The notes under the pieces: model-generated
Told to the model about the DNA's origin: nothing
What the model saw: only the letters and a program-made list of their open reading frames with translations
Databases searched by the model: none
Made by a program: the position numbers and the translations under genes
Assembly: GCF_016863275.1 (NCBI RefSeq)
Contig: NZ_BOOO01000001.1
Coordinates: forward strand, 1 to 64,000
Length of the DNA: 64,000 nucleotides
Reading direction: 5' to 3'
Source of the DNA: Planotetraspora mira
GTDB taxonomy: Bacteria > Actinomycetota > Actinomycetes > Streptosporangiales > Streptosporangiaceae
Part shown: in pieces, positions 19,756-60,492 of the stretch
How positions within the stretch are numbered: position 1 is the stretch's first letter
How the letters are laid out: each line of letters starts with the position of its first letter

Positions 19756-19860
19756 GGCTTGCGGTGCCGTGGGAGGGAACGCCGCGCGGGTGGCTTGCGG
19801 TGCCGTGGGAGGGAACGCCGCGCGGCTGGCTTGCGGTGCCGTACGCGGGAACGCCGACCG
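19756..19860. repeat. Three tandem copies of a 36-bp repeat
   Basis: Copies begin at 19756, 19792 and 19828 with GGCTTGCGGTGCCGT. Copies 1 and 2 differ at a single base near the end, and the third diverges in its second half. It is intergenic, between the pruA terminator and the acetyltransferase. The unit is 12 codons long, so it is open on the minus strand (VPSHGTAS repeats), but no gene start or ribosome binding site supports translation. Confidence 0.85.
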
Positions 19861-20881: not shown

Positions 20882-21750
20882 AGGCCGGTGGCCGCCGGGA
20901 TGACCCGGGCTCCGATGATCTCGAGCGGCTCGAGGCGGTGGACCTCCTTGACCTGGCCGATGGCATGGCTGAAGCCCATCTCGGCGAACCCGCCGAGGTC
21001 GTCGACGATCCGCTGGGCGTTCTCGCCGTTGTCGCCTACGTCGTAGCGGTAGTAGACGGTCTTCTCGATCTCGTCGTAGTCGCGGCCCTCGGCCTCGCAG
21101 TGGGCCCGGAGCACATCCAGCTTCCGCGCCAGGTCGGGGCCGGGGAACAGGTTGCAGGCCTGCGCGTATCGGGCCACCAGACGGAGGGTCTTCTTCTCCC
21201 CGCCTCCGCCGATGAGGATCGGGGGGTGCGGCCGGGTCAGGGCCTGCGGCGAGTTGAGCGGCCGTTCGAGCTGGTAGTGCCGGCCGTGGTAGGGCTTCTC
21301 GTCGTCCGTCCACATCTGCAGGCAGATCTGGACCGCCTCCTCCAGTCGCTCGAGCCGCTCGCGCGTCTCGGGGAAGGCGAATCCCAGTCCGCGCGACTCC
21401 TCGTCGTTCCACGCCGCGCCGATCCCCAGCCAGGCACGGCCGCCGGACAGCACGTCGAGGGTTGTGATGATCTTGGCAAGCAGGCCGGGCTCGCGATAGA
21501 TGGTCCCGGTGACGAGAGTGAACAGATCGGCCCTGGTCGTGTGGGCGGCCAGGTAACCGAGTGTGGTGTAGGCCTCCAGCATCTCGCCCTCGCTGGGACC
21601 GACGCTGCGGATCTGGAAGAAGTGATCCATCACGGCGATGGCCGCGAATCCCGCGTCATCGGCGGTCTTCGCGATCGCCGCCAGGTCCGCGCCGAGGGTG
21701 GCGGGGCCGCCGGGGTAGGTGAAATCGGGGATCTGTAGTCCAATTTTCAT
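20878..21750 (-). CDS. LLM-class F420-dependent oxidoreductase
   Basis: A 290-residue luciferase-like barrel. It starts MKIGLQIPDFTYPGG, then has IAVMDHFFQI, TLVTGTIYREPGLLAKIITTLDVLSGGRAWLGIGAAW and PILIGGGGEKKTLRLVARYA. The pattern is that of actinobacterial F420-dependent members, which use F420H2 for hydride transfer. AGGAGG precedes the ATG. Another F420-type gene lies 80 bases upstream on the same strand. The substrate is unknown. Confidence 0.87.
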   Translation of the reverse strand: MKIGLQIPDFTYPGGPATLGADLAAIAKTADDAGFAAIAVMDHFFQIRSVGPSEGEMLEAYTTLGYLAAHTTRADLFTLVTGTIYREPGLLAKIITTLDVLSGGRAWLGIGAAWNDEESRGLGFAFPETRERLERLEEAVQICLQMWTDDEKPYHGRHYQLERPLNSPQALTRPHPPILIGGGGEKKTLRLVARYAQACNLFPGPDLARKLDVLRAHCEAEGRDYDEIEKTVYYRYDVGDNGENAQRIVDDLGGFAEMGFSHAIGQVKEVHRLEPLEIIGARVIPAATGL

Positions 21751-21828
21751 TTATTCCTCCTATTACTTACTTACACCCCTTTCCTTGGGCGCAGAAAGCC
21801 CCATCGTTCACGGATTTTCAGAGCGGCG

Positions 21829-22245
21829 TCAGGTCGCCATGTCCCGGAACGCGATGACCCGGTCGATTCTCAGCCTGACGACCAGTTCGCCCGGCACGCC
21901 GTTGCGCTCGCCGAACTCCTCTGCCCTGTCCTGGCCCATGTAGCGGCCGCCGAGCGCGGACGCCCACTTGATCAGGTCGTCGAGGTCGGACGAGATGGTC
22001 GCCTCACCCTCGATCATGACGAAGGCGTACGGAGTGTGCTCGTCGTCGACGCACAGGGTCGCCCGGGGATCACGCCGGAGCGCCCTCCCCTTCACACCGG
22101 TCTCGCTGGTGTTGAACACCACGTCGTCGCCGTCGAGGACGAACCAGATCGGGGTCACGTGGGGCCGGCCGTCCGCACGGGTGACCGCCAGTTTCCCGGT
22201 CCGGGTACCCGTCATCACGAACTCGCGCCACTCGGCATCCGTCAT
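21829..22245 (-). CDS. PPOX-class F420-dependent oxidoreductase
   Basis: A split-barrel flavin/deazaflavin protein of about 138 residues: REFVMTGTRTGKLAVTRADGRPHVTPIWFVLDGDDVVFNTS. This matches the FDOR-B/PPOX F420 group. I prefer the ATG at 22245 because GAGGG lies nine bases upstream; ATG 22254 is an alternative. Its upstream side faces the first 53-bp repeat array. It may share a transcript with the LLM oxidoreductase downstream. Confidence 0.85.
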   Translation of the reverse strand: MTDAEWREFVMTGTRTGKLAVTRADGRPHVTPIWFVLDGDDVVFNTSETGVKGRALRRDPRATLCVDDEHTPYAFVMIEGEATISSDLDDLIKWASALGGRYMGQDRAEEFGERNGVPGELVVRLRIDRVIAFRDMAT

Positions 22246-22283
22246 GGCTTCCATCCCTCAAACCTACGCCCACCCCCCTCCAC

Positions 22284-22750
22284 CGTGATCACGCACGCCT
22301 CCCGCGTGATCATGCACAGCCGCCGCGTGATCATGCACAGGTTCGGTGATTGCGCCGCCGACCTGCGCAACCCCGCGCCGTGATCATGCACAGGTTCGGT
22401 GATCAGGTCGGCGAGCAGCGCGAACGTCTTTCGTGATCATGCGCAGATTCGGCGGCATGACCGATGACCAGGCACGATCACGTTCGTGATCATGCAGATA
22501 GTCACTTATCCTTGCCGAGCCGGGATTGCATGATCACGGAGTGATTCCGCGCTGGCCAGGTGGCACCTGTCCGATTCTGCGCATGATCACGGAAGACGTT
22601 TCCACAGGCCAGGTGCCCCGTGAACGAATCCGTGCATGATCACGCCGGGCATCGGCGCAGGTCGGCGGCGTAACCGCCGAACCTGTGCATGATCACGGCT
22701 TAGGTTTGCGCCGGCCGGCACGGCAATCACCGAACCTGTGCATGATCACG
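22284..22750. repeat. Array A: 53-bp-phased inverted repeat array
   Basis: Forward copies of the core CGTGATCATGCACAGGTTCG start at 22284, 22305, 22326, 22379, 22432 and 22485. Inverted copies end at 22538, 22591, 22644, 22697 and 22750. Spacing is 21 bp for the first three and exactly 53 bp after that, including across the centre. Several units carry a second conserved segment, GCCGACCTGCGC, complementary to part of the core, so they can form hairpins. It fills the gap between the PPOX gene and the stop of the TPP-enzyme gene, its right edge 16 bases from that stop. Confidence 0.92.
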
Positions 22751-22765
22751 CGGGGGGTTAGGGGG

Positions 22766-24526
22766 TCAGTGGCCGCGGAAGGCTTCTTCGAGCCACCAGG
22801 CGCCCTTGTCGGCCGTCACCTGGGCGTGGACCACCAGGGGCTTGTCCCTCGGGCCCTTGAGCCACTCGGCGACGTCCGCCAGATCGGCCCTCTCCCGTAC
22901 GGCCACAGCCTCACAGCCGAACCCTCGCGCGATCGCGGCGATGTCCACCGGCGGGAACCTGACCGTGTCGAGCGGGAACCCGTCAGGCCCGAAATGGTGC
23001 ACCTCGGCCCCGTACCCCTGATCGTCGTAGACCACGACCACCATGGGGATGCCCAGCCGTACGACAGTCTCGAGCTCCCCGACGCTCATCAGCAGGCCGC
23101 CGTCGCCCAGCGCGGCGACGGGCAGCCGGTCAGGCCGGGCCAGCGCCGCCCCGATGGCGGTGGCCAGGCCGAGCCCGACCGATTGGAACGCCTGCGTGAA
23201 GCAGAAACCGCTTCCGTCGGGGACCGACATGAACATCGTCGGATACCCCATGAAGTTGCCCGAGTCGATGGACACGACCCTCTCCTCGGGCAGGAGATCG
23301 TCCAGCTCGATCGACAACGTCCGGGGGTCGATCCGGCCGTCCCCGCTCAGATCCTCGTACGGAACGTCCCGCCAGCGGACCTCACGGGCGATCCGCCCGG
23401 CGAGCTCGGGGCCGCGATAGCCGGTCGGCGCCTCACCGGGCTCGGCCGGGGCCAGCAGGGCACCCACCGTCCGCGCGGTCTCCCGCACGTCTCCGACCAC
23501 GCCCAGGTCGACCGGGCGATTGACGCCGATGGCGTCGGGGTCGATCTCGACCTGGACGACCTTGGTGTCCGGCCCGATGAGCGTGCCGTGCCGCGTGGTC
23601 CACATCGTGAAGGAGCAGCCCCATCCGACGACGAGGTCCGCCGCGCCGATGAGCTCCGCCGCAAGCGGGGACGCGAACCCGCCGCTCACGTCCAGATCCC
23701 ACGGGCTGCCGTGGAAGTGTCCCTTCGCGACCGCCGAGGTCGCGAACAGCGCGCCGACGCGCTCCCCCAGAGCCTCGAGTTCCTTGCGGGAGCCGCGCGC
23801 GCCGCGTCCCGCCACGAACACCGGGCGCTCCGCGGCCGCCAGCAGGCCGGCCAACTCCGCCACGGCTCCGGAGACGCCGGGTCCCCCGCCCTGCGAGCCC
23901 GAGACGATGGGCTCCTCCGCGCTGGACTCCTGTACGCCCGGGAAGGTCAGTCCCCATGGAGGCGGGACGAGGCCCGCCGCCTCCTGGCGCCTGCTCCCGC
24001 GGCCCGCGCGCAGTTCCTGTACGGCGTGCACGACGTCGTCGGGCAACTCTTCGGCCTGGACGTCGAGGGGCAGGTTGAGCAGCACCGTGCGGCGGCCGAG
24101 CAGGGCGGCGAGGTAGGCCATGACCGTGTCGTCCACCACGGTCTCCGCCGACCCCACCCTGGCCCCGTGCGCGCCGACGGCGGCCGCGAGCGCGGCCTGG
24201 TCGATCCGGAAGTTCGAGCGCGGCGAGGTGGCCTCGGCGGCCAGGACCAGCAGGGGCGTACGGCTCTTGGCGGCCTCGGTGACGCCGGTCAGGGCGTTGG
24301 TGAGGCCGGGCCCCTGGTGCACGCTGAGCACCGCGACGGTGCCGCTCATCCGCGAATAGGCGTCCGCCATGGTGGCGGCGCCGCCCTCGTGCCGTGCCGC
24401 GACGTAGCGGACGCCCTGCTCGGTCAGGGCGTTGGTCACGTGGAAGTTGCCGCTCCCGACGACGCCGAAGGCCGCGCGGACGCCCAAAGAGGCGAGCACG
24501 GTGCCGACGGCCTCCGCGACGTTCAT
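22766..24526 (-). CDS. Thiamine pyrophosphate-dependent enzyme of the acetolactate synthase/decarboxylase superfamily
   Basis: A 586-residue protein with the three-domain layout of the family. The N-terminal PYR domain has FGVVGSGNFHVTNAL, the activating glutamate in AARHEGGAATMADAYSR, and SVHQGPGLTNALTGV. The central domain has RPVFVAGRGARGS. The PP domain has ALGDGGLLMSVGELETVVRLGIPMVVVVYDDQGYGAEVHH, the GDG...N-type TPP-binding motif with Asp in the position usually held by Asn. The exact 2-oxo acid substrate cannot be told. Its start overlaps the stop of the cyclase gene (ATGA), so the two probably work in one pathway. Confidence 0.87.
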   Translation of the reverse strand: MNVAEAVGTVLASLGVRAAFGVVGSGNFHVTNALTEQGVRYVAARHEGGAATMADAYSRMSGTVAVLSVHQGPGLTNALTGVTEAAKSRTPLLVLAAEATSPRSNFRIDQAALAAAVGAHGARVGSAETVVDDTVMAYLAALLGRRTVLLNLPLDVQAEELPDDVVHAVQELRAGRGSRRQEAAGLVPPPWGLTFPGVQESSAEEPIVSGSQGGGPGVSGAVAELAGLLAAAERPVFVAGRGARGSRKELEALGERVGALFATSAVAKGHFHGSPWDLDVSGGFASPLAAELIGAADLVVGWGCSFTMWTTRHGTLIGPDTKVVQVEIDPDAIGVNRPVDLGVVGDVRETARTVGALLAPAEPGEAPTGYRGPELAGRIAREVRWRDVPYEDLSGDGRIDPRTLSIELDDLLPEERVVSIDSGNFMGYPTMFMSVPDGSGFCFTQAFQSVGLGLATAIGAALARPDRLPVAALGDGGLLMSVGELETVVRLGIPMVVVVYDDQGYGAEVHHFGPDGFPLDTVRFPPVDIAAIARGFGCEAVAVRERADLADVAEWLKGPRDKPLVVHAQVTADKGAWWLEEAFRGH

Positions 24527-25296
24527 CTCTCCACCAGGGCGAGGACGCGCGTCGGGCTGCCCGAGCCGCCGACGATCGGCAGCGGACCCGCGATCACGAC
24601 CGCTCCCGTGGGCGGCAGCCTGTCGAGGTTGCGCAACTGGGTGAGGCCGTACTTGCCGGCTCCGAGCAGGAACGAATGACACGGGAAGGCGGGGTCGAAC
24701 GAGTGCGCCGCGCCTGCGTCGGTGCCGACGGTCTCCACGCCGAGTCCCGCGATCGGGGTCTCCTCGGCGAGGTAGCGGGCGCACTGGACCGAGATGCCCG
24801 GGGTGTGGGGCCCGGTCTCGTCGGCGTTCAGGAACTCGGCCTGGTCGTGCGCCCGGACGTCCCAGCCGGTCCGGTAGAGGAGCCAGCCTCCGTCGGGCAG
24901 CGGGCCGTGCTCGTCCTCCCACTGCTTGACGTGGTCGATCTCGAGGAGGAAGTCGGGGTCGCGCCGCGCCTCGGCGACGAAGTCGAGCACCACGGCGGGG
25001 GCGATGAGCTTGGAGACGGCGACCTGGGAGATGTCCTCCCCGTCCCTGGCCGTCACCCAGTGATTCGGGGCGTCGAAGTGCGTCCCGACATGTTCGCCGG
25101 TCGTGAAGTTGTTCCAGTACCAGGCCGGGCCCCGGTCGTCGTACCGGCTGATCTCATGGAGCGCGAAGGGCACCGTCTGCCCGAACTGCTCGGGTAGCAG
25201 GAGGATCGGCGTCGTCCCACTCAGCGGCGCGGTCAGGTCGAGCACCTCGATCCCACCGGTCCGGATGCTCTCCACAAGTTCGCGCAGCACCGACAT
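24523..25296 (-). CDS. Cyclase/kynurenine formamidase-like metal hydrolase
   Basis: A 257-residue member of the cyclase family (Pfam Cyclase). The metal motif HxGTHxDxPxH is present as GEHVGTHFDAPNHW near residues 67-80. Other conserved parts are VLDLTAPLSG, LLYRTGWD and GLGVETVGTDAG. Family members hydrolyse N-formylkynurenine or related amides and lactones. The start at 25296 has GGGAG six bases upstream; 25308 is an alternative. It leads a coupled pair with the TPP enzyme, so a ring-opening or hydrolytic step before 2-oxo acid decarboxylation is conceivable. Confidence 0.82.
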   Translation of the reverse strand: MSVLRELVESIRTGGIEVLDLTAPLSGTTPILLLPEQFGQTVPFALHEISRYDDRGPAWYWNNFTTGEHVGTHFDAPNHWVTARDGEDISQVAVSKLIAPAVVLDFVAEARRDPDFLLEIDHVKQWEDEHGPLPDGGWLLYRTGWDVRAHDQAEFLNADETGPHTPGISVQCARYLAEETPIAGLGVETVGTDAGAAHSFDPAFPCHSFLLGAGKYGLTQLRNLDRLPPTGAVVIAGPLPIVGGSGSPTRVLALVER

Positions 25297-25442
25297 GCCG
25301 ACTCCCATCTGTCAGGATGGGAAGATCCTCCTACACCCCACTCCCGAATGCCAGATCAGAATCGGCCCGCTCTGGTTCGGCGTCCGCAGTCCCGAATCAC
25401 ATTCCACATGTGCCGAACTTACGTCCACATCACACAGTCGAC

Positions 25443-25465
25443 GCCAATAATTCGGACTTATTGGC
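25443..25465. promoter_or_regulatory. Candidate operator between cyclase and dhaK genes
   Basis: GCCAATAA and TTATTGGC form a perfect inverted repeat around a seven-base spacer in an AT-rich part of the 370-base divergent region. It could bind a repressor of either direction. The rest of the region shows no gene. Confidence 0.5.
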
Positions 25466-25667
25466 ATAAATAGACATTGGGCATAGCATCGGAAAACCTG
25501 GTCTACCCAGACGACGGCACCGGTGTTCCGAGCCCCCAGAGGGTCCGAACGACGGTTCGTTGCGGCTCGGCGTACCTGACATCGCGGGATGCCCGCGGCG
25601 CGACCGCTTGCCGTCATCGCGGACGGGGCACAAGTGGGCCTTGAGAACGGACAAGGACGGCGTGGTC

Positions 25668-26660
25668 ATGAAGAAGCTCATCAACAGCGTCGACGCGATC
25701 GTCACCGACACCCTCCACGGCGTCGCGGCGGCGCATCCCTCGCTCCGCGTGGACATCGAGAACCGGGTGATCTACCGGCGGGACGCGCCGCGGCCGGGCA
25801 AGGTCGGGCTCGTCTCCGGCGGCGGTGCCGGCCACGAGCCGCTCCACGGCGGTTTCGTCGGGTACGGCATGCTCGACGCGGCCTGTCCCGGCGAAGTCTT
25901 CACCTCACCCGTCCCCGACCAGATGATCGAGGCCTCCAAGGGGGTCGACGGCGGAGCCGGAGTGCTCCACATCGTCAAGAACTACACGGGCGACGTGCTC
26001 AACTTCGAGATGGCGGCCGAGTTGTGCGCCGACGAGGGCATCGAGGTCGCCAGCGTCCTGGTCAACGACGACGTCGCCGTCCAGGACTCCCTCTACACCG
26101 CCGGCCGCCGCGGCACGGGGGCGACGTTGTTCGTGGAGAAGATCGCCGGGGCCCTGGCCGAGACCGGCGCCCCGCTCGCGGAGGTCGCCCGCCTGGCCCA
26201 GGAGGTCAACGAGCGCAGCCGGTCGTTCGGAGTCGCCCTGTCGGCAGGCACGGTTCCCGCCGCCGGCAAGCCGACGTTCGACCTGTCCGACACCGAGATC
26301 GAGCTCGGCATCGGCATCCACGGCGAGCCCGGCCGCACGCGCAGCACCCACCGGGAGGCCCGCGAGATCGCGCGGCTGGCCATGGACGCCATCAACGACG
26401 ACGTCCCCCTTTCCGGCGACACGCTTGTCCTGCTCAACGGGATGGGCGGCACTCCGCTCCTGGAGCTCTACATCGTGTACGCGGAAGTCGCCGCCTACCT
26501 CGAGGAGAAGGGCGCGACAGCCGTACGCTGCCTGGTGGGCAACTACGTCACCAGCCTCGACATGCAGGGCTTCTCGGTCAGCGTCTGCCGTCTGACCGAC
26601 GAGCTCACCCGGCTCTGGGACGCTCCGGTGGAGACGCCGGGGCTCCGCTGGGGTCGCTGA
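25668..26660 (+). CDS. dhaK: Dihydroxyacetone kinase subunit DhaK
   Basis: A 330-residue substrate-binding subunit. It starts MKKLINSVDAIVTDTLHG. Conserved parts are LVSGGGAGHEPLHGGFVGYGMLDAAC, IVKNYTGDVLNFEMA and, for the covalent hemiaminal, the histidine in ELGIGIHGEPG. It binds dihydroxyacetone for phosphorylation by DhaL-ADP. The start at 25668 follows AAGGA; the frame is open upstream but without family similarity. It is the first gene of dhaKLM. Confidence 0.95.
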   Translation: MKKLINSVDAIVTDTLHGVAAAHPSLRVDIENRVIYRRDAPRPGKVGLVSGGGAGHEPLHGGFVGYGMLDAACPGEVFTSPVPDQMIEASKGVDGGAGVLHIVKNYTGDVLNFEMAAELCADEGIEVASVLVNDDVAVQDSLYTAGRRGTGATLFVEKIAGALAETGAPLAEVARLAQEVNERSRSFGVALSAGTVPAAGKPTFDLSDTEIELGIGIHGEPGRTRSTHREAREIARLAMDAINDDVPLSGDTLVLLNGMGGTPLLELYIVYAEVAAYLEEKGATAVRCLVGNYVTSLDMQGFSVSVCRLTDELTRLWDAPVETPGLRWGR

Positions 26661-26764
26661 TCCTCACTCTCCCCGACTCCCGCCCGGGACCCTCGCCGGA
26701 AGGCGACGATCGAAGCCCGCGGAGAACCCTCTGACAGGAAACGCCGTGCAGCAAGGAGCCACCG

Positions 26765-27390
26765 TTGGACACATCCTTCTTCCTGGCCTGGATCAAGGAG
26801 GCCGCGACAGCCGTACAGGCCGAGCGTGATCACCTCACCCAGCTCGACGCCGCGATCGGCGACGCCGACCACGGCGCCAATCTGGACCGGGGCTTCGCGG
26901 CCGTACGGCAGGCCTTGGCGGATACGCCTCCGGAGACGCCGGGCGCGGTCCTGGTGCAAGCCGGCTCCGCGCTGATCCGCAAGGTGGGAGGAGCATCCGG
27001 CCCGCTGTACGGCACGGCCTTCCGCCAGATGGGCCGGGCGCTGGGCGACGCCCCGGAGATCACGCCTGCCGGCCTGGTCACGGCGCTGGAGGCGGCCCAG
27101 GAGGGGGTCCAGAAGCTGGGCGGGGCAGCCGAAGGCGACAAGACCCTGGTGGACGCGTTCGCTCCCGCCGTCAGAGCCCTGGCGCAGGCCGTACAGGACG
27201 GGGCGAAGCTGGCGGACGCCCTGGAGACGGCGACGACCGCCGCCGAGGAGGGCGCGCGGGCAACCGTCCCGCTGCAGGCGCGCAAGGGACGGGCCAGCTA
27301 TCTCGGCCCGCGCAGCGTCGGGCACGAGGATCCGGGAGCCGCGTCGACGGTGCTGATCTTCACCGCGCTGCGGCGGGCGGCCGGGCAGGC

Positions 27391-27394
<4 letters not shown>
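26765..27394 (+). CDS. dhaL: Dihydroxyacetone kinase subunit DhaL (ADP-binding)
   Basis: A 209-residue protein with the DhaL signature: LDAAIGDADHGANLDRGF (aspartates that hold the magnesium-ADP), GGASGPLYGTAFRQMG, and GDKTLVDAFAPAV. The C-terminal ARKGRASYLGPRSVGHEDPGAAS completes the nucleotide site. ADP stays bound and is rephosphorylated by DhaM. TTG 26765 is preceded by AAGGAG. It overlaps dhaM. Confidence 0.94.
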
Positions 27395-27825
<431 letters not shown>

Positions 27826-27839
27826 CCCGACCCCCTCCG

Positions 27840-28287
27840 CGTGATCATGCACAGGTTCGTACGGATGGCTCCTCACGTGCGGAAACCTCGGACGTGATCA
27901 TGCACAAATTCGGGTCAACGTCCTCCCACCTGCACATTTGTCGAGCGTGATCATGCGCAGATTCGGAGAAGACGCCGCTGAACTGCGCCGTCGTCAATGG
28001 TGATCATGCAGGGTTCCGGGACGGAGAGCACATCCCGATCACGTGGTACGGCCGGCAGGAACTCGCATGATCACGATCGGAGTTCGCGCAGGTCAAGCGG
28101 CACTTCTCCGAGCCTGTGCGTGATCACGTTGAAGGTTTGCGCACGTGAGACGAGCTCTGCGCGAATCTGTGCATGATCACGCAGAGAAAACGCGCAGGTC
28201 AGATTCATCCCACACGAATGTGTGCATGATCACGGCAACAGTCTGGGCAGGTCAGGCGGCGGGTCGGCGAACCTGTGCATGATCACG
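27840..28287. repeat. Array B: 53-bp-phased inverted repeat array
   Basis: Forward cores begin at 27840, 27893, 27946 and 27999; inverted cores end at 28075, 28128, 28181, 28234 and 28287. All steps are 53 bp except the central 76 bp. Units on the left match mirrored units on the right beyond the core: the unit at 27946 and that ending 28128 share CTCGGAGAAG-like and CTGCGC segments, and the units at 27840 and 28181 share CTCACGTGCG. It lies between the dhaM stop (15 bases away) and the smr stop (17 bases away). Confidence 0.92.
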
Positions 28288-28303
28288 CGGAAAAAAGGGG
28301 GGG

Positions 28304-28555
28304 TTACCAGCGGAAGTAGACGAACAGGCGGCCGTGGTTCTTGGCGTCCTTGTCGATCCGGTGATAGAGCGCCTTGATCTCCTTCTGTTCCAGGAATCGC
28401 AGCACTTTCTTCTTCAGCTGTCCCGAGCCCTTGCCCGGAATGATCTCCACCTGGGTGGCCTTCTTCTGGACCGCCTCCTGGATGATGCCGCGCAGCGCCC
28501 GGTCGATCTCGCCGCCCTTGTTGTAGATGTCATGGAGATCCAGCTTGAGCTTCAC
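28304..28555 (-). CDS. Small Smr-domain protein
   Basis: An 83-residue protein that is only an Smr domain, as found at the C-terminus of MutS2. It has the LDLHD motif at residues 4-8, VEIIPGKGSGQLKKKV for the loop, and HGRLFVYFRW at the end. Smr domains are nucleases acting on branched DNA or on mRNA at stalled ribosomes. It is unclear which applies to this stand-alone version. Its 3' end abuts repeat array B. Confidence 0.85.
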   Translation of the reverse strand: MKLKLDLHDIYNKGGEIDRALRGIIQEAVQKKATQVEIIPGKGSGQLKKKVLRFLEQKEIKALYHRIDKDAKNHGRLFVYFRW

Positions 28556-28622
28556 GGATCAAGTCTAAAGGGCCGCCGCCAGCCCAACCGATTACCAAAA
28601 GACCCCGTCAAATTGCCGTAAA

Positions 28623-28649
28623 AAACGATCTAGCCGCATAAATGATCGT
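28623..28649. promoter_or_regulatory. Candidate operator upstream of the secreted protease
   Basis: AACGATC and GATCGTT are separated by 13 AT-rich bases, between the divergent smr and protease genes. The spacing would suit a dimeric regulator. Confidence 0.45.
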
Positions 28650-28803
28650 TAGTTAGACTCCCTGTCAGGATCGGCCGCCCACCCGGGTGGCCGTTCGCTC
28701 GTCGCCCACCGGGGAGGGGCTCGTACCTTCCCATGCCATCTGGGCGGCGCGACGCCTCCATTCCTGTGTGCCTCGAGTGCCTGCAGCACTACAGGGAGGT
28801 GTC

Positions 28804-37928: not shown

Positions 37929-39166
37929 GGAACCTCCGCAGTGATCGAAGTGGGCCCGCCTGCCGGAGACCGTACGGCCAGCTCGCCGTCGACCCCACGC
38001 AGCCGCTCGGCGAGGCCGGACAACCCGTGTCCCTTGGCGACGTGCGCGCCGCCGACCCCGTCATCGCCGATCGTGAGCATCAGGCTGTCGCCGATTCTCA
38101 TCAGCGTGATCGTGCACAGTTCCGCCCGGCTGTGCTTGGCGACGTTGGTGAGCGCCTCGGCCGTCACGAAGTAGACGGTGTTCTCGATCAGCGCGGGGAA
38201 CCGTTCCTCCGTCTGGACGTCGAGCTCCACGGGGACCGTGCAGCGGCTCGCCAGGGCGGCCAGCGCGGGAACCAGGCCGCGGTCGGCCAGGATAGGCGGC
38301 GCGATGCCGCGCGAGAGCGCGCGCAGCTCGTCCAGCGTCTCCCTGGTGGCGGTGATCGCCTTGCCGATGGTCGACTGGGCCGCGGCCGCGTCCTTCTCCA
38401 GCTCGCGCTGCGCGCGGGACAACTCCATGGCCAGGTGGACGAGGCGCTGCTGCGGCCCGTCGTGGATGTCCCGCTCCAGTCTGCGCAGGGCGGTCGCCTC
38501 TGCGTAGGCGGCGGCGTTGCGCCCCTCGGTCAGGTCCTCGATGCGCTCCTGCAGCTGGGCGACGCCGGTGAGCAACGCCTTGCCGAGCGACGCCTGCACC
38601 AGCGCGCAGCCGCGGACGACCGGGTACAGCGTGAGCGCCGCGAGGAGACCGATGCCCACGTAGAAGATGCTGTCGTTCACGTAGCCCCGGTCGAACCCGA
38701 GCAGCTCGGGGAGCCCCTCGTTGCCCGGAATGTTCGACAGGAGCCAGCCGTAGACGGGGTAGGTGACCCCGAAGATCGCCGTCCCCCACCACATGACGAT
38801 CACGCAGAACGTGGCGATGGCGACGGGGAACACCACCAGGGCGTGCAGGATGTCGAGCCACGGCTGCCCGCCGGCGAGCGGCGACAGCATCTTGCGGAAC
38901 CATCCCGCCTCGGCCGGGGACCGGGGGTAGCGGGGCTGGGGCACGTCCATACCCAGGACCCCGCGCATCCTCAGCCGCTCGATGTCGCCCAGCCCTCGTG
39001 CCACGAGAGCCGTCAGCACCAGGACCGGCACGCCCAGCCAGAAGACCAGCAGGCTGGCACCCGCGGACAGACCTAACACCATCAGGCAGAACGCGATACT
39101 CGCGAGGGGGAACCCGACGAGGAGGTAAACCGTGTCCCCGGCGAGTCGGGAGAGAAGTCTTCGCAT
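37919..39166 (-). CDS. Membrane sensor histidine kinase (NarL-partner type)
   Basis: A 415-residue protein. The N-terminal region (about 10-220) has several transmembrane helices, the actinobacterial 'putative sensor' domain. HisKA_3 follows with the phosphorylated histidine in RRLERDIHDGPQQRLVHLAMELSRAQ. The ATPase part has VTAEALTNVAKHSRAELCTITL (N-box), TIGDDGVGGA and GHGLSGLAERL. ATG 39166 is preceded by GGGAG. It is the partner of the downstream response regulator and resembles DesK-like kinases. Confidence 0.9.
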   Translation of the reverse strand: MRRLLSRLAGDTVYLLVGFPLASIAFCLMVLGLSAGASLLVFWLGVPVLVLTALVARGLGDIERLRMRGVLGMDVPQPRYPRSPAEAGWFRKMLSPLAGGQPWLDILHALVVFPVAIATFCVIVMWWGTAIFGVTYPVYGWLLSNIPGNEGLPELLGFDRGYVNDSIFYVGIGLLAALTLYPVVRGCALVQASLGKALLTGVAQLQERIEDLTEGRNAAAYAEATALRRLERDIHDGPQQRLVHLAMELSRAQRELEKDAAAAQSTIGKAITATRETLDELRALSRGIAPPILADRGLVPALAALASRCTVPVELDVQTEERFPALIENTVYFVTAEALTNVAKHSRAELCTITLMRIGDSLMLTIGDDGVGGAHVAKGHGLSGLAERLRGVDGELAVRSPAGGPTSITAEVPCG

Positions 39167-47338: not shown

Positions 47339-49513
47339 TTAGAGGCCCACCGCCGAGTAGAGGTCGCCGACCTCCTGGACGGTCAGCGTCCGGATCGTGC
47401 CCGGCTTGAGACGGCCCAGCTTGACCGGGCCGAACTCGATGCGGGCCAGGTCGATCACCCGGTGACCGGACGCCTCGAGCAGCCGCCTGACGATGTGCTT
47501 GCGCCCCTCGTGCAGGATGATCTCGACGAGCGCCTGCTGGCCGTGCTCCTGGACGATGTTGAACTCGTCGACCTTGGCCAGGCCGTCCTCGAGCTCGATG
47601 CCCTTGCGGAGCACCCGGTGCAGGTCGCGCGGGACGGGACCGGGAACCTTGGCCCAGTACTTCTTCTGCACGCCGTAACTCGGGTGGGTCAGGCGGTGCG
47701 CCAGCTCCCCGTCGTTGGTGAACAGCAGCAGGCCCTCGGTCTCGGTGTCCAGCCGTCCCACGTGGAACAGCCGCGTGGTGAGGTCCTGGACGTAGTCCTG
47801 GAGGCACGGACGGCCGTCCGGGTCCTCCATCGTGCTCACGACGCCGATCGGCTTGTTCAGCGCGTAGTAGACGAGCTCGGGCGAGGTCGGAATGCGCTTG
47901 CCGTCGACGTGGATGACCTGCTTGACCGGGTCGACCCGCGCCCCGAACCTGCGGACCACCTGGCCGTCGACCGTGACTCTGCCGTCGCCGATCATCTCCT
48001 CGCAGGCGCGGCGGCTGGCGATGCCGGCCTGGGCGAGGACCTTCTGCAGCCGCTCGCCGCCCGGCACCTCTGTGGTGTCGCGCTCGTCGACGTAGTCCTT
48101 GTCGTAGAAGTCCGGGTCGCGCAGCGGCTGCCGGGAGGTCTTGAACGGGTTGTCGCCGGCCTTCCCCGCCCCGCCACCGCGGGCTCCTCCCGCAGGGGCG
48201 CCACCCCGTGTTCCGTACGGCTTGGCCTCGGGCCTGCCCCCGCGCGGCGCACCGGAGCCTCCACCACGCAGGTCACGGCGCGAGCTGTCCCTGCCGAAAC
48301 GGCCTCGCGAGCCGCCACGCTCGGCGCCACCGGTCCGGCCGGCGCCGTCACGGCGAGCACCCTCACCGCGAGCACCCTGACCGCGAGCACCGTCACCGCC
48401 GATCGTCTGAACGTCGTCGGACCGGTCGTCCTTACGGCCATATCCGGTGCGGGCGCCACCGCGGTCGGCGCGGAATGCCGGCCTGCCCTGTGCGGAGGGG
48501 CGGCCGTCGTCACGCCGGTCACCACGCCAGTCACGCTGGTCACGTCCGCCGTCCCGGCTGTCCGCACGGGCGTCGTCGCGACGCGGGGCGTAGCCGCGGT
48601 CGTCGCGGCCGCGGTCGGATCCGCGATCAGACGCGCCAGGACCACGGTTGAAGCCGCGGTCGGACGGGCCCGACCCACGGCCGAAGCCACGGTCATCGCG
48701 CCCACGATCAGACCCACCAGAACCACGATTGAAGCCACGGTCAGACGGACCAGACCCACGGCTGAAACCACGATCATCGCGCCCACGATCAGACGCGCCA
48801 GGACCACGGCCGAAGCCGCGGTCGGACGCACCGGACCCACGACTGAAACCACGATCGGACGCACCGGACCCACGATTGAAACCACGATCGGACGGGCCAG
48901 ACCCACGGCCGAAGCCACGATCATCGCGCCCACGATCAGACCCACCAGAACCACGATTGAAACCACGGTCAGACGGACCAGACCCACGGCTGAAACCACG
49001 GTCAGACGGGCCCGACCCACGGCCGAAGCCGGAGCCACGGCTGAAACCGCGGTCGTCGCTCCGTCCGCCCCGGTCGTCCGGGCGGCGCTCGCCGCGTTCC
49101 GAGCGAGTGTCATCCGGCCGGCCGTACCCGCCGCGTGAACCGCCGCGGTCGGCTCGGAAGGAGTCGCGGTCGCCGCTCCTGAAGCGGTCCCGGTCGCCGC
49201 CGGGCCTGCCGTACGAGCCGCCGGAGCCGCCCCGGTCACCTGTGTCGCCGGAGCGGGGGCCTCCGTCCCGGCGGGATCCGGCGTCCGGCCGGTAGCCGGA
49301 ACCGGCGTCCGAGCGGGAGCCTCCGCGCCTGTCGCCCTGGGGACGACCCTGAGATCCGCTCCGGAATCCGCCGCCCGATCCGCTTCTGGGCGAGTCTCCC
49401 GACCCTCTTCTCGCGTCTCCGGCACCGCGACCGGACCCGCCGGTTCCTCCGCGCTGACCGGTGTTCCGGCTTCGACCGCGTCCATCACCGGACGGGGTAG
49501 GCCTGCTGTTCAC
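47339..49513 (-). CDS. rluB: RluB-type pseudouridine synthase with a very long repetitive N-terminus
   Basis: A 724-residue protein. Only about the last 250 residues are the enzyme: an S4 domain from about 478 (GERLQKVLAQAGIASRRACEEMI) and the RsuA/RluB catalytic domain with the active Asp in HVGRLDTETEGLLLFTNDGELAHRLTHPSYG. The first 470 residues are Gly, Arg, Ser and Asp-rich, with repeated SDRGF(S/N/G)RGSG units at about 150-305. Actinobacterial RluB often has a charged extension, but this is long. It modifies 23S rRNA; the RGG-like tail may bind RNA. GTG 49513 overlaps the scpB stop. Confidence 0.92.
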   Translation of the reverse strand: MNSRPTPSGDGRGRSRNTGQRGGTGGSGRGAGDARRGSGDSPRSGSGGGFRSGSQGRPQGDRRGGSRSDAGSGYRPDAGSRRDGGPRSGDTGDRGGSGGSYGRPGGDRDRFRSGDRDSFRADRGGSRGGYGRPDDTRSERGERRPDDRGGRSDDRGFSRGSGFGRGSGPSDRGFSRGSGPSDRGFNRGSGGSDRGRDDRGFGRGSGPSDRGFNRGSGASDRGFSRGSGASDRGFGRGPGASDRGRDDRGFSRGSGPSDRGFNRGSGGSDRGRDDRGFGRGSGPSDRGFNRGPGASDRGSDRGRDDRGYAPRRDDARADSRDGGRDQRDWRGDRRDDGRPSAQGRPAFRADRGGARTGYGRKDDRSDDVQTIGGDGARGQGARGEGARRDGAGRTGGAERGGSRGRFGRDSSRRDLRGGGSGAPRGGRPEAKPYGTRGGAPAGGARGGGAGKAGDNPFKTSRQPLRDPDFYDKDYVDERDTTEVPGGERLQKVLAQAGIASRRACEEMIGDGRVTVDGQVVRRFGARVDPVKQVIHVDGKRIPTSPELVYYALNKPIGVVSTMEDPDGRPCLQDYVQDLTTRLFHVGRLDTETEGLLLFTNDGELAHRLTHPSYGVQKKYWAKVPGPVPRDLHRVLRKGIELEDGLAKVDEFNIVQEHGQQALVEIILHEGRKHIVRRLLEASGHRVIDLARIEFGPVKLGRLKPGTIRTLTVQEVGDLYSAVGL
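48600..49060 (-). repeat. Degenerate tandem repeats encoding RG-rich segments of RluB
   Basis: Units of about 30-48 bases repeat many times within the rluB N-terminus, each encoding variants of SDRGFNRGSG with RGRDD linkers. Similarity at the DNA level is high, so the tract probably expands and contracts by slippage or recombination. Confidence 0.8.
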
Positions 49514-59521: not shown

Positions 59522-60121
59522 ATGTTCGCGGCGCTGACCGGGCTCGGCCTGTCGACCGCGGCGGGGCTCAACGCCTACATCCCGCTCATGGTCGTCGGGC
59601 TGCTCGCCAACCTCACCGACGCCGTACGGCTGCCGCAGGGCTACGAATGGCTGTCCAACGGCTGGGTCCTGGCGGTCATCGGGGTGCTGCTGGTCGCCGA
59701 GTTCGTGCTCGACAAGGTCCCCGTAGTGGACCACGTCAACGACATCATCCAGACGGCCGTACGGCCCGCATCCGGGGGCGTGGTCTTCAGCGCCACCGCG
59801 GCCGCGGCCAGGCTGGACGAATCGACGTGGATGGCCGAGCATCCGGCGGTCGGCTGGGTCCTCGGCATCGTGGTCGCCCTGGCCGTCCATCTGGTCAAGT
59901 CGGGCGCCCGCCCCGTCGTCAACGCGACCACGGCGGGTTTCGGCGCCCCCGTCGTCAGCACGGTCGAGGACGCGAGTTCGCTGGGCATGAGCCTCATCGC
60001 GATCTTCCTGCCGGTGCTCGTCATCGTGGCGATGGCGGTTCTGGCATTGGTCGCCTGGCTGCTCCTGCGCCGGGTGCGCCGCTATCGGGAGGCCCGCCGA
60101 GCCCGCCCCGCCGGACCGTGA
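59522..60121 (+). CDS. DUF4126 membrane protein
   Basis: A 199-residue protein with four to five hydrophobic helices: MFAALTGLGLSTAAGLNAYIPLMVVGLLANL, VLAVIGVLLVAEFVLDKVPVVDHVNDIIQTAVRP, and others to about 190. The sequence KVPVVDHVND-Q-AVRP is the mark of DUF4126. Function unknown. ATG 59522 has AAGGAG seven bases upstream. Its stop codon is within the first unit of repeat array C. Confidence 0.85.
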   Translation: MFAALTGLGLSTAAGLNAYIPLMVVGLLANLTDAVRLPQGYEWLSNGWVLAVIGVLLVAEFVLDKVPVVDHVNDIIQTAVRPASGGVVFSATAAAARLDESTWMAEHPAVGWVLGIVVALAVHLVKSGARPVVNATTAGFGAPVVSTVEDASSLGMSLIAIFLPVLVIVAMAVLALVAWLLLRRVRRYREARRARPAGP

Positions 60122-60492
60122 TCACGCACAGATTCGGCGTCAGCGCCCTTGGCCTGGCGCGATCGTATTCGTGATCATGCACGGGTTCGGTGATCAGGCC
60201 GACGAACAGGGCCCACATCTTCCGTGATCATGCGCCGATTCGGCATCAGGGCCGTTGGCCTGGCGCGATGGCATTCGTGATCATGCATGCGACTTTCCCG
60301 AAGCCCGGTTGTCGGTCGTCACTGCATGATCACGAATGGGATCCGCGCTGCTCGCAAGCGTTTTCCCGAACCTGTGCATGATCACGAACATTGTTTCAGC
60401 AGGTCAGCGGCCATCGCGGCGAACCTGTGCATGATCACGGCGAGAGTCGACGCAGGCGAGGGGGGCGATCGCCGAACTTGTGCATGATCACG
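60117..60492. repeat. Array C: 53-bp-phased inverted repeat array
   Basis: Forward cores start at 60117, 60170, 60223 and 60276; inverted cores end at 60334, 60386, 60439 and 60492. Steps are 53 bp (one of 52), with a central 58. The units at 60170 and 60223 match, in order and beyond the core, the units at 22379 and 22432 of array A (GGTGATCAGG and GGCCTGGCGCGAT-like parts). It lies between the DUF4126 stop and the arsR stop (18 bases away). Confidence 0.92.

Follow-up and report, generated by a model that had tools for sequence, protein, structure and literature searches.

Intergenic regions of Planotetraspora mira contain rows of a 12-bp core, CGTGATCATGCA, whose copies follow one another at a constant step of 53 bp, are held in place between species, lie for the most part beside gene 3' ends and recur, with changing tails, in genomes of five families. 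We tentatively propose, as a serious possibility somewhat short of an even chance, that these arrays are rows of binding sites for a putative DNA-binding protein that would act as a roadblock or insulator at gene ends. The observations come from a stretch of 64,000 nucleotides (positions 1 to 64,000 of contig NZ_BOOO01000001.1), here called the window, from the genome to which it belongs (G000, the own genome) and from other genomes. Three arrays of one design, A, B and C, are present in the window, with array A shown by its parts:

22268..22283, plus strand: C-rich tract outside the left arm of array A
22284..22295, plus strand: outermost forward core, with one mismatch; the next core follows 21 bp on
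22305..22316, plus strand: second forward core, 21 bp before the core at 22326
22326..22496, plus strand: forward arm with 53-bp steps (cores at 22326, 22379, 22432 and 22485)
22497..22526, no strand: centre of array A, 30 bp separating the facing innermost cores
22527..22750, minus strand: inverted arm (cores at 22527, 22580, 22633, 22686 and 22739; four steps of 53 bp)
22751..22766, minus strand: right-hand outer C-rich tract (rich in G when read on the plus strand), adjoining the stop of a TPP-enzyme gene
27840..28287, no strand: array B, four forward and five inverted cores, between the convergent EIIA-man (DhaM-like) and Smr genes
38105..38119, plus strand: lone core-like site, one mismatch to the 15-mer used in searches
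60117..60492, no strand: array C, four forward and four inverted cores, between DUF4126 and ArsR-like genes

Array A (22284-22750) comprises eleven cores, six forward and then five inverted. The forward cores start at 22284, 22305, 22326, 22379, 22432 and 22485, with steps of 21, 21, 53, 53 and 53 bp, and these positions confirm the layout given in the first-pass annotation, an eleven-core, forward-then-inverted array with 53-bp and 21-bp steps. Wherever the step is 53 bp the linker is 41 bp long, and the linkers of the forward arm (22326..22496) bear CAGGTTCGG-like and GACCTG-like blocks. The motif GCCGACCTGCGC, claimed earlier for several units, is indeed present, but exact copies are limited to two units of array A, one in each orientation. 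The 21-bp steps are not maintained in other genomes: in G003 the orthologous array (L188) is stepped at 30 bp, while steps of 19 bp occur in G001 at a different array (L179). Allowing at most three mismatches to the 15-mer, the window holds 30 matches against a mean of 1.83 (maximum 5) in 100 shuffles, which excludes a chance origin of these matches.

The locus of array B carries an array at the same site in G001, G003 and G004 and none in G002, where 16 bp are left between the two stops. An array is present in G001, the least similar of the five Planotetraspora genomes in protein identity, and at fourfold sites G002 resembles G003 more than it does G000; loss of the array in G002 is therefore the most parsimonious interpretation. 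Contig C13 of G001 (L179) stops within this array, so arrays may break short-read assemblies and be under-counted. At array C, the stop TGA of the DUF4126 gene is the TGA of the outermost core. Where this array is missing (L183 in G003, L182 in G002 and L184 in G001), the DUF4126 gene is followed by different downstream sequence, which indicates that gene content changed there too. In this presence and absence comparison of loci B and C, which bears on MITEs and insertion remnants, no target duplication was seen by eye.

Three other repeats of the window were noted. Tandem repeats of 33, 81 and 147 bp (CCACGATCAGACCCACCAGAACC...) occupy 48624-49030, within an interval (48067-49510) in which the simple gene caller places no gene; a six-base CAGGCT repeat at 27403-27449 encodes an Ala-Gln run close to the start of the DhaM-like protein; and a 36-bp tandem repeat of 2.8 copies (19756-19856) lies directly downstream of a gene that is aldehyde-dehydrogenase-like by eye.

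Searches of the whole own genome with the 15-mer (at most two mismatches) gave 443 + 455 = 898 matches, compared with 4 + 3 = 7 for the reversed control. Within 1.264 Mb of sequence from this genome we identified 60 arms of at least two cores; their 198 steps measure 53 bp in 195 cases and 52 bp in three. At nine loci from other genera of the family, 22 of 30 steps are 53 bp and 29 of 30 fall between 51 and 54 bp. The claim of a constant 53-bp spacing is thus upheld. The arms form 37 arrays when those less than 450 bp apart are merged, a rule that joins two neighbours on contig 8 into one. The forward-then-inverted order stated for array A holds in the 22 arrays with two facing arms, and the remaining 15 consist of a single arm; outside the genus, it was found at five of the nine loci. 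The distance between two arms shows no helical preference (22 arrays; approximate p at least 0.13).

In the repeated unit, CGTGATCATGCA is followed by CAGGTTCGG-like letters and some 13 free positions, then by a stretch similar to YGACCTGCGC and some 11 positions that are freer; the CAGGTTCG part is usually missing from the innermost core of an arm. In the 16 nt outside each of 59 own arms, C makes up 57% and G 15%, a composition that might serve as a Rho-type (rut) site, whereas the 60 nt after 494 array-free stops are 35% C and 35% G. Because the C-rich tract also accompanies arms that face gene 5' ends, it belongs to the element rather than responding to transcription; it is found within the last codons of genes as well. 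Exact cores more than 400 bp from any array number only four in the 1.264 Mb, two of them inside genes. A lone exact core at C1:100830 has been conserved in four species; the genes on either side of it share one strand, and the one downstream is S8-peptidase-like by eye. The idea that a lone core marks the promoter of the reader gene was rejected, since among the four isolated exact cores the conserved one stands beside this S8-peptidase-like gene and no regulator.

Are these arrays old residents of their sites, and which of their parts are maintained? Presence was compared at 12 contig-1 sites in four Planotetraspora genomes (G000, G002, G003 and G004). Cores stand at the corresponding junction for all 12 sites in G004, for 11 of 12 in G003 and for 9 of 12 in G002 (one to four cores each), with mean numbers of cores per shared site of 6.92 in G000, 7.00 in G004, 5.83 in G003 and 1.83 in G002. 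Unit number varies between species, at times by exactly 53 bp, and the 11-bp core is exact in 221 of 258 cases in the own arms and in 15 of 24 in G002. The arrays are therefore old in place and shrunken at most compared sites of one genome, G002; the few cores that it retains make the arrays look dispensable.

Within the arrays the core and the linker have evolved very differently. Between orthologous units of G000 and G004, 6 of 594 core positions have changed against 193 of 1296 linker positions (p=3e-26) and 32 of 486 block sites, as counted in 54 of the 60 matched units, those with a linker difference of at most 8/24, the six units above 8/24 being set aside. A fuller alignment gave 10 changes in 846 core positions and 136 in 766 positions of linker columns 21-33. 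For the same two genomes, 3726 of 54016 fourfold-degenerate sites differ (6.9%), as do 1206 of 25862 positions of array-free intergenic DNA (4.7%). The core is thus held in place under strong constraint, in support of the first-pass interpretation, while substitutions have accumulated in the linkers at about twice the rate seen at synonymous sites. The comparison of G000 with G003 (core 60/761, linker 313/719, fourfold sites 19.5%) is blurred by gain and loss of units. Beside the arrays, the non-coding 0-20 nt are also divergent (28/220), whereas coding flanks, at about 3%, are not, as measured in the alignable flanks, 3 of 24 having been skipped. Small indels are rare inside arrays, with 2 in 3328 aligned columns versus 95 in 25862 array-free intergenic columns (p=0.001); this deficit supports selection on spacing and likewise favours the first-pass interpretation. 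Mirror-image units of opposite arms are near-identical in 6 of 65 cases, compared with 2 of 182 other cross-arm pairs (p=0.005), from which we infer exchange or template switching within the palindrome.

Another important question is whether the conserved core is read as RNA or as DNA. The first-pass annotation held that units can fold as hairpins with a role at mRNA 3' ends, and some folding is indeed seen: 19 double arrays shorter than 520 bp out-fold their shuffles by a wide margin (mean z -14.5, 19/19 below -2), 14 single-arm arrays do so more modestly when folded from the outer to the inner end (mean z -3.1, 10/14 below -2; other strand -1.9, 5/14), and CGUGAUCAUG can pair with itself through G-U pairs, as seen in the folds. 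However, the folding of double arrays is owed to the inverted arms alone, and their separate arms barely exceed shuffles (mean z -1.3 and -0.3); in single-arm arrays folding is largely pairing of core with core (five folds inspected). Single-unit hairpins found no support: the unit stem is without pairing covariation, and units fold no better than two-unit chimeras (p 0.37-0.66). Eight of nine pair counts within the unit equal those of shuffles, columns 22-32 (z 2.0) being the exception; the palindromic core columns 2-9 reach z 7.7, a value that stems from 3 of 195 units, none with a compensatory pair. Moreover, core changes are as few in single-arm arrays (2/286) as in double arrays (8/560), and this equal constraint where the inverted arm is absent indicates that pairing between arms is not its cause. 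We therefore regard units or whole arrays acting as hairpins in mRNA 3' ends as very improbable. Rfam gave no match at the gathering score in window positions 20000-64000. An intrinsic terminator, that is, a GC-rich hairpin with a T run, was rejected for window positions 21700-28700, where the T-tailed pattern matched once (at 22683, inside array A) compared with 2.0 matches in shuffles.

The core behaves differently when considered as DNA. Its asymmetry is maintained: in 195 own units, position 2 is G in 99% and position 9 is T in 98%, although C at position 9 would give a better palindrome. The strongest column dependencies in these units are between adjacent bases. Fixed asymmetry and dependence between neighbouring columns fit reading by a protein, and we consider it likely that the core is read as DNA by a putative protein rather than as RNA. 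The rows consist, as a phased array of sites would, of constrained sites at a fixed spacing under selection.

As for location, the outer side of the arm is a gene 3' end in 40 of 59 own arms, within 60 nt in 38 of those 40, and in 10 own arms the outermost core supplies the TGA with which the gene stops. The other 19 of the 59 face a gene 5' end, 12 of them at more than 60 nt. Among the 36 own arrays that have both neighbouring genes, 13 are convergent, against 191 of 1041 junctions (over-represented, p=0.015), and three are divergent, against 192 of 1041, a depletion that is not significant (p=0.18); genes were called with a simple home-made caller. The four genomes together give 27 convergent and three divergent contexts among 71 arrays, but orthologous arrays are counted repeatedly in that total, which leaves the own-genome test as the independent one. 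A putative role at gene 3' ends fits these positions.

Convergent gene ends also bring to mind chromosome organisation, since the BIMEs of enterobacteria have been proposed to hold loops or absorb supercoils there. A chromosome-organising element, at which a nucleoid protein or topoisomerase would hold loops or absorb supercoils at convergent ends, would be in keeping with the enrichment of convergent junctions, with hundreds of core copies per genome and with constraint of the protein type. Yet the arrays are no more evenly placed than random junctions (CV 0.80 vs a mean of 0.89; 32 gaps), so regular chromosomal spacing was rejected, and most units are gone in G002; we think this explanation improbable.

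Across Streptosporangiaceae, the unit model detects the repeat in 14 of 250 genomes, representing 6 of 68 genera, with at most 21 scored candidates per genome; a search for the 53-bp pair pattern succeeds in 14 of 327 genomes (5 of 68 genera), and none of the matches listed is to the control. CGTGATCTTGCAGTTTGTCGC and CGTGATCTTGCAGAAACTCG are examples of the form found in other genera of the family. In a class-wide sample of 388 genomes, eight contain at least 20 exact cores and the other 380 at most eight. The eight core-rich genomes span five families, in which the core is the same and the tails change; G374, from the same genus as core-rich G418, is without the exact word. Loci from three of the four other families (f30, f32 and f42) show a C-rich tract, the core and a genus-specific tail, mostly in facing copies, and two f33 loci have facing pairs and no evident C-rich tract. 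Positional conservation beyond the genus was rejected: among eight Smr loci in other genera, G078 is the one at which a DhaM-like neighbour was recognised by eye from the DNA, and it keeps one core with one mismatch, and the other seven have no core (at most one mismatch, 700 nt searched).

Spacing also differs between families. Core steps are 34-35 bp in 12 of 22 cases in G418 and 37-41 bp in 6 of 7 in G359. The earlier idea of helical phasing as the principle is weakened by these genomes and by the distance between arms, and five whole helical turns are a feature of Streptosporangiaceae rather than a general rule. Taken as a whole, the first-pass interpretation is partly supported.

Comparison with known repeats places the arrays apart from each of them. 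In CRISPR loci, direct repeats of about 23-50 bp all run the same way and are separated by unrelated spacers. The arrays resemble them as a short repeat split by variable DNA of fixed length, but their repeat is 12 bp long and outside that definition, a second, inverted arm is present in 22 of 37, the linkers carry conserved blocks and there are many arrays per genome; none of the eight genes named at or near arrays A-C is a cas gene. BIMEs are groups of REPs between genes, proposed as gyrase sites, in alternating orientation; the arrays are likewise repeat groups between genes, whereas all copies in one arm share one direction. In the DNA uptake sequences of Neisseriaceae, as outlined in passages of PMC3630211, a fixed core with lineage-specific neighbours is over-represented in the genome and read by ComP. 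The fixed core with changing neighbours is a likeness to these dialects; the differences, measured against the same passages, are phased arrays, a 12-bp core rather than a 3-base core, and cores that occur almost only in arrays. No account of this repeat was recognised among the open-access papers searched.

The nearest known kind are REPINs, short extragenic repeats present in many copies as facing doublets (PMC3116915; see also PMC8049555), and REPs carry a GTAG or CGTC tag next to a short palindrome (PMC3733652). The likeness lies in multi-copy short extragenic repeats and facing doublets: two facing arms occur in 22 of the 37 own arrays, and the fetched loci of G418, G565 and G400 often contain facing pairs, with 18-28, 27 and 38 bp between the cores, respectively. 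The arrays differ in having no GTAG or CGTC tag, their consensus being CGTGATCATGCA plus a tail, and in forming direct rows at a fixed 53-bp step with a cross-family core conserved in place. A REPIN-like mobile repeat without known transposase, of which a facing pair of core and tail was copied into gene ends and then duplicated locally, would account for hundreds of cores in some genomes and their patchy distribution (at least 20 in 8 of 388 genomes), for stop codons within cores, which resemble insertion into gene ends, and for the absence of the locus C array in G001, G002 and G003. Against this, the core is constrained in place, and sites common to four Planotetraspora genomes imply little recent movement. 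Y1_Tnp (RAYT-type, PF01797) is absent from 12 of the 15 core-bearing genomes, the own genome included (one of the 12, G400, being only 84% complete), and present in G001, G053 and G102, so membership of the REP/RAYT system was rejected. Mobile carriers were rejected as well: viral contigs contain no exact pair pattern, and blastn of array A against plasmids and phages gave no match. We judge such a mobile repeat unlikely, though deserving of real weight, and a mobile-repeat origin may hold alongside a present function.

Returning to rows of binding sites at gene ends, we infer a protein, its cooperative binding and an effect on transcription, and picture them as follows. Recognition of CGTGATCATGC would fall to a fixed part of the protein, and that of the genus-specific tail after it to a part that evolves faster. 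In Streptosporangiaceae, protein copies would bind each 53 bp, that is, at every five helical turns, and the resulting nucleoprotein row would usually start at or just after the stop codon and point away from the gene; in two-armed arrays, two such rows would face one another. The likely effect would be that transcription is stopped or insulated at gene ends by the protein roadblock, perhaps with the assistance of the C-rich tract, which in the nascent RNA is similar to a Rho loading site. It is the position of the arrays that suggests a terminator or insulator role. Several observations speak against binding-site rows: 19 of 59 arms are directed at a gene 5' end, divergent genes flank 3 of 36 arrays, the C-rich tract also accompanies arms directed at 5' ends, G002 retains few cores per shared site, the step is not the same in other families, and array RNA also folds better than shuffles. 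Furthermore, REP-like repeats also cluster between genes, because insertion inside genes is harmful.

In a broader sense, the arrays may belong to an undescribed actinobacterial system, a judgement that we hold to be almost evenly balanced: a widely shared DNA reader with a fixed and a genus-specific part, a 12-bp word amplified between genes, five-turn rows in Streptosporangiaceae, and units gained and lost together genome-wide. G002, with its few units, would be a natural knock-down, and G374 versus G418 offers a comparison for finding the reader gene. One word in five families with changing tails allows the co-evolution of a DNA reader and its sites to be studied. To our knowledge, ordinary T-tailed terminators are scarce in this bacterial group, and if the arrays are protein rows, they would constitute a gene-boundary system built on DNA, not RNA.
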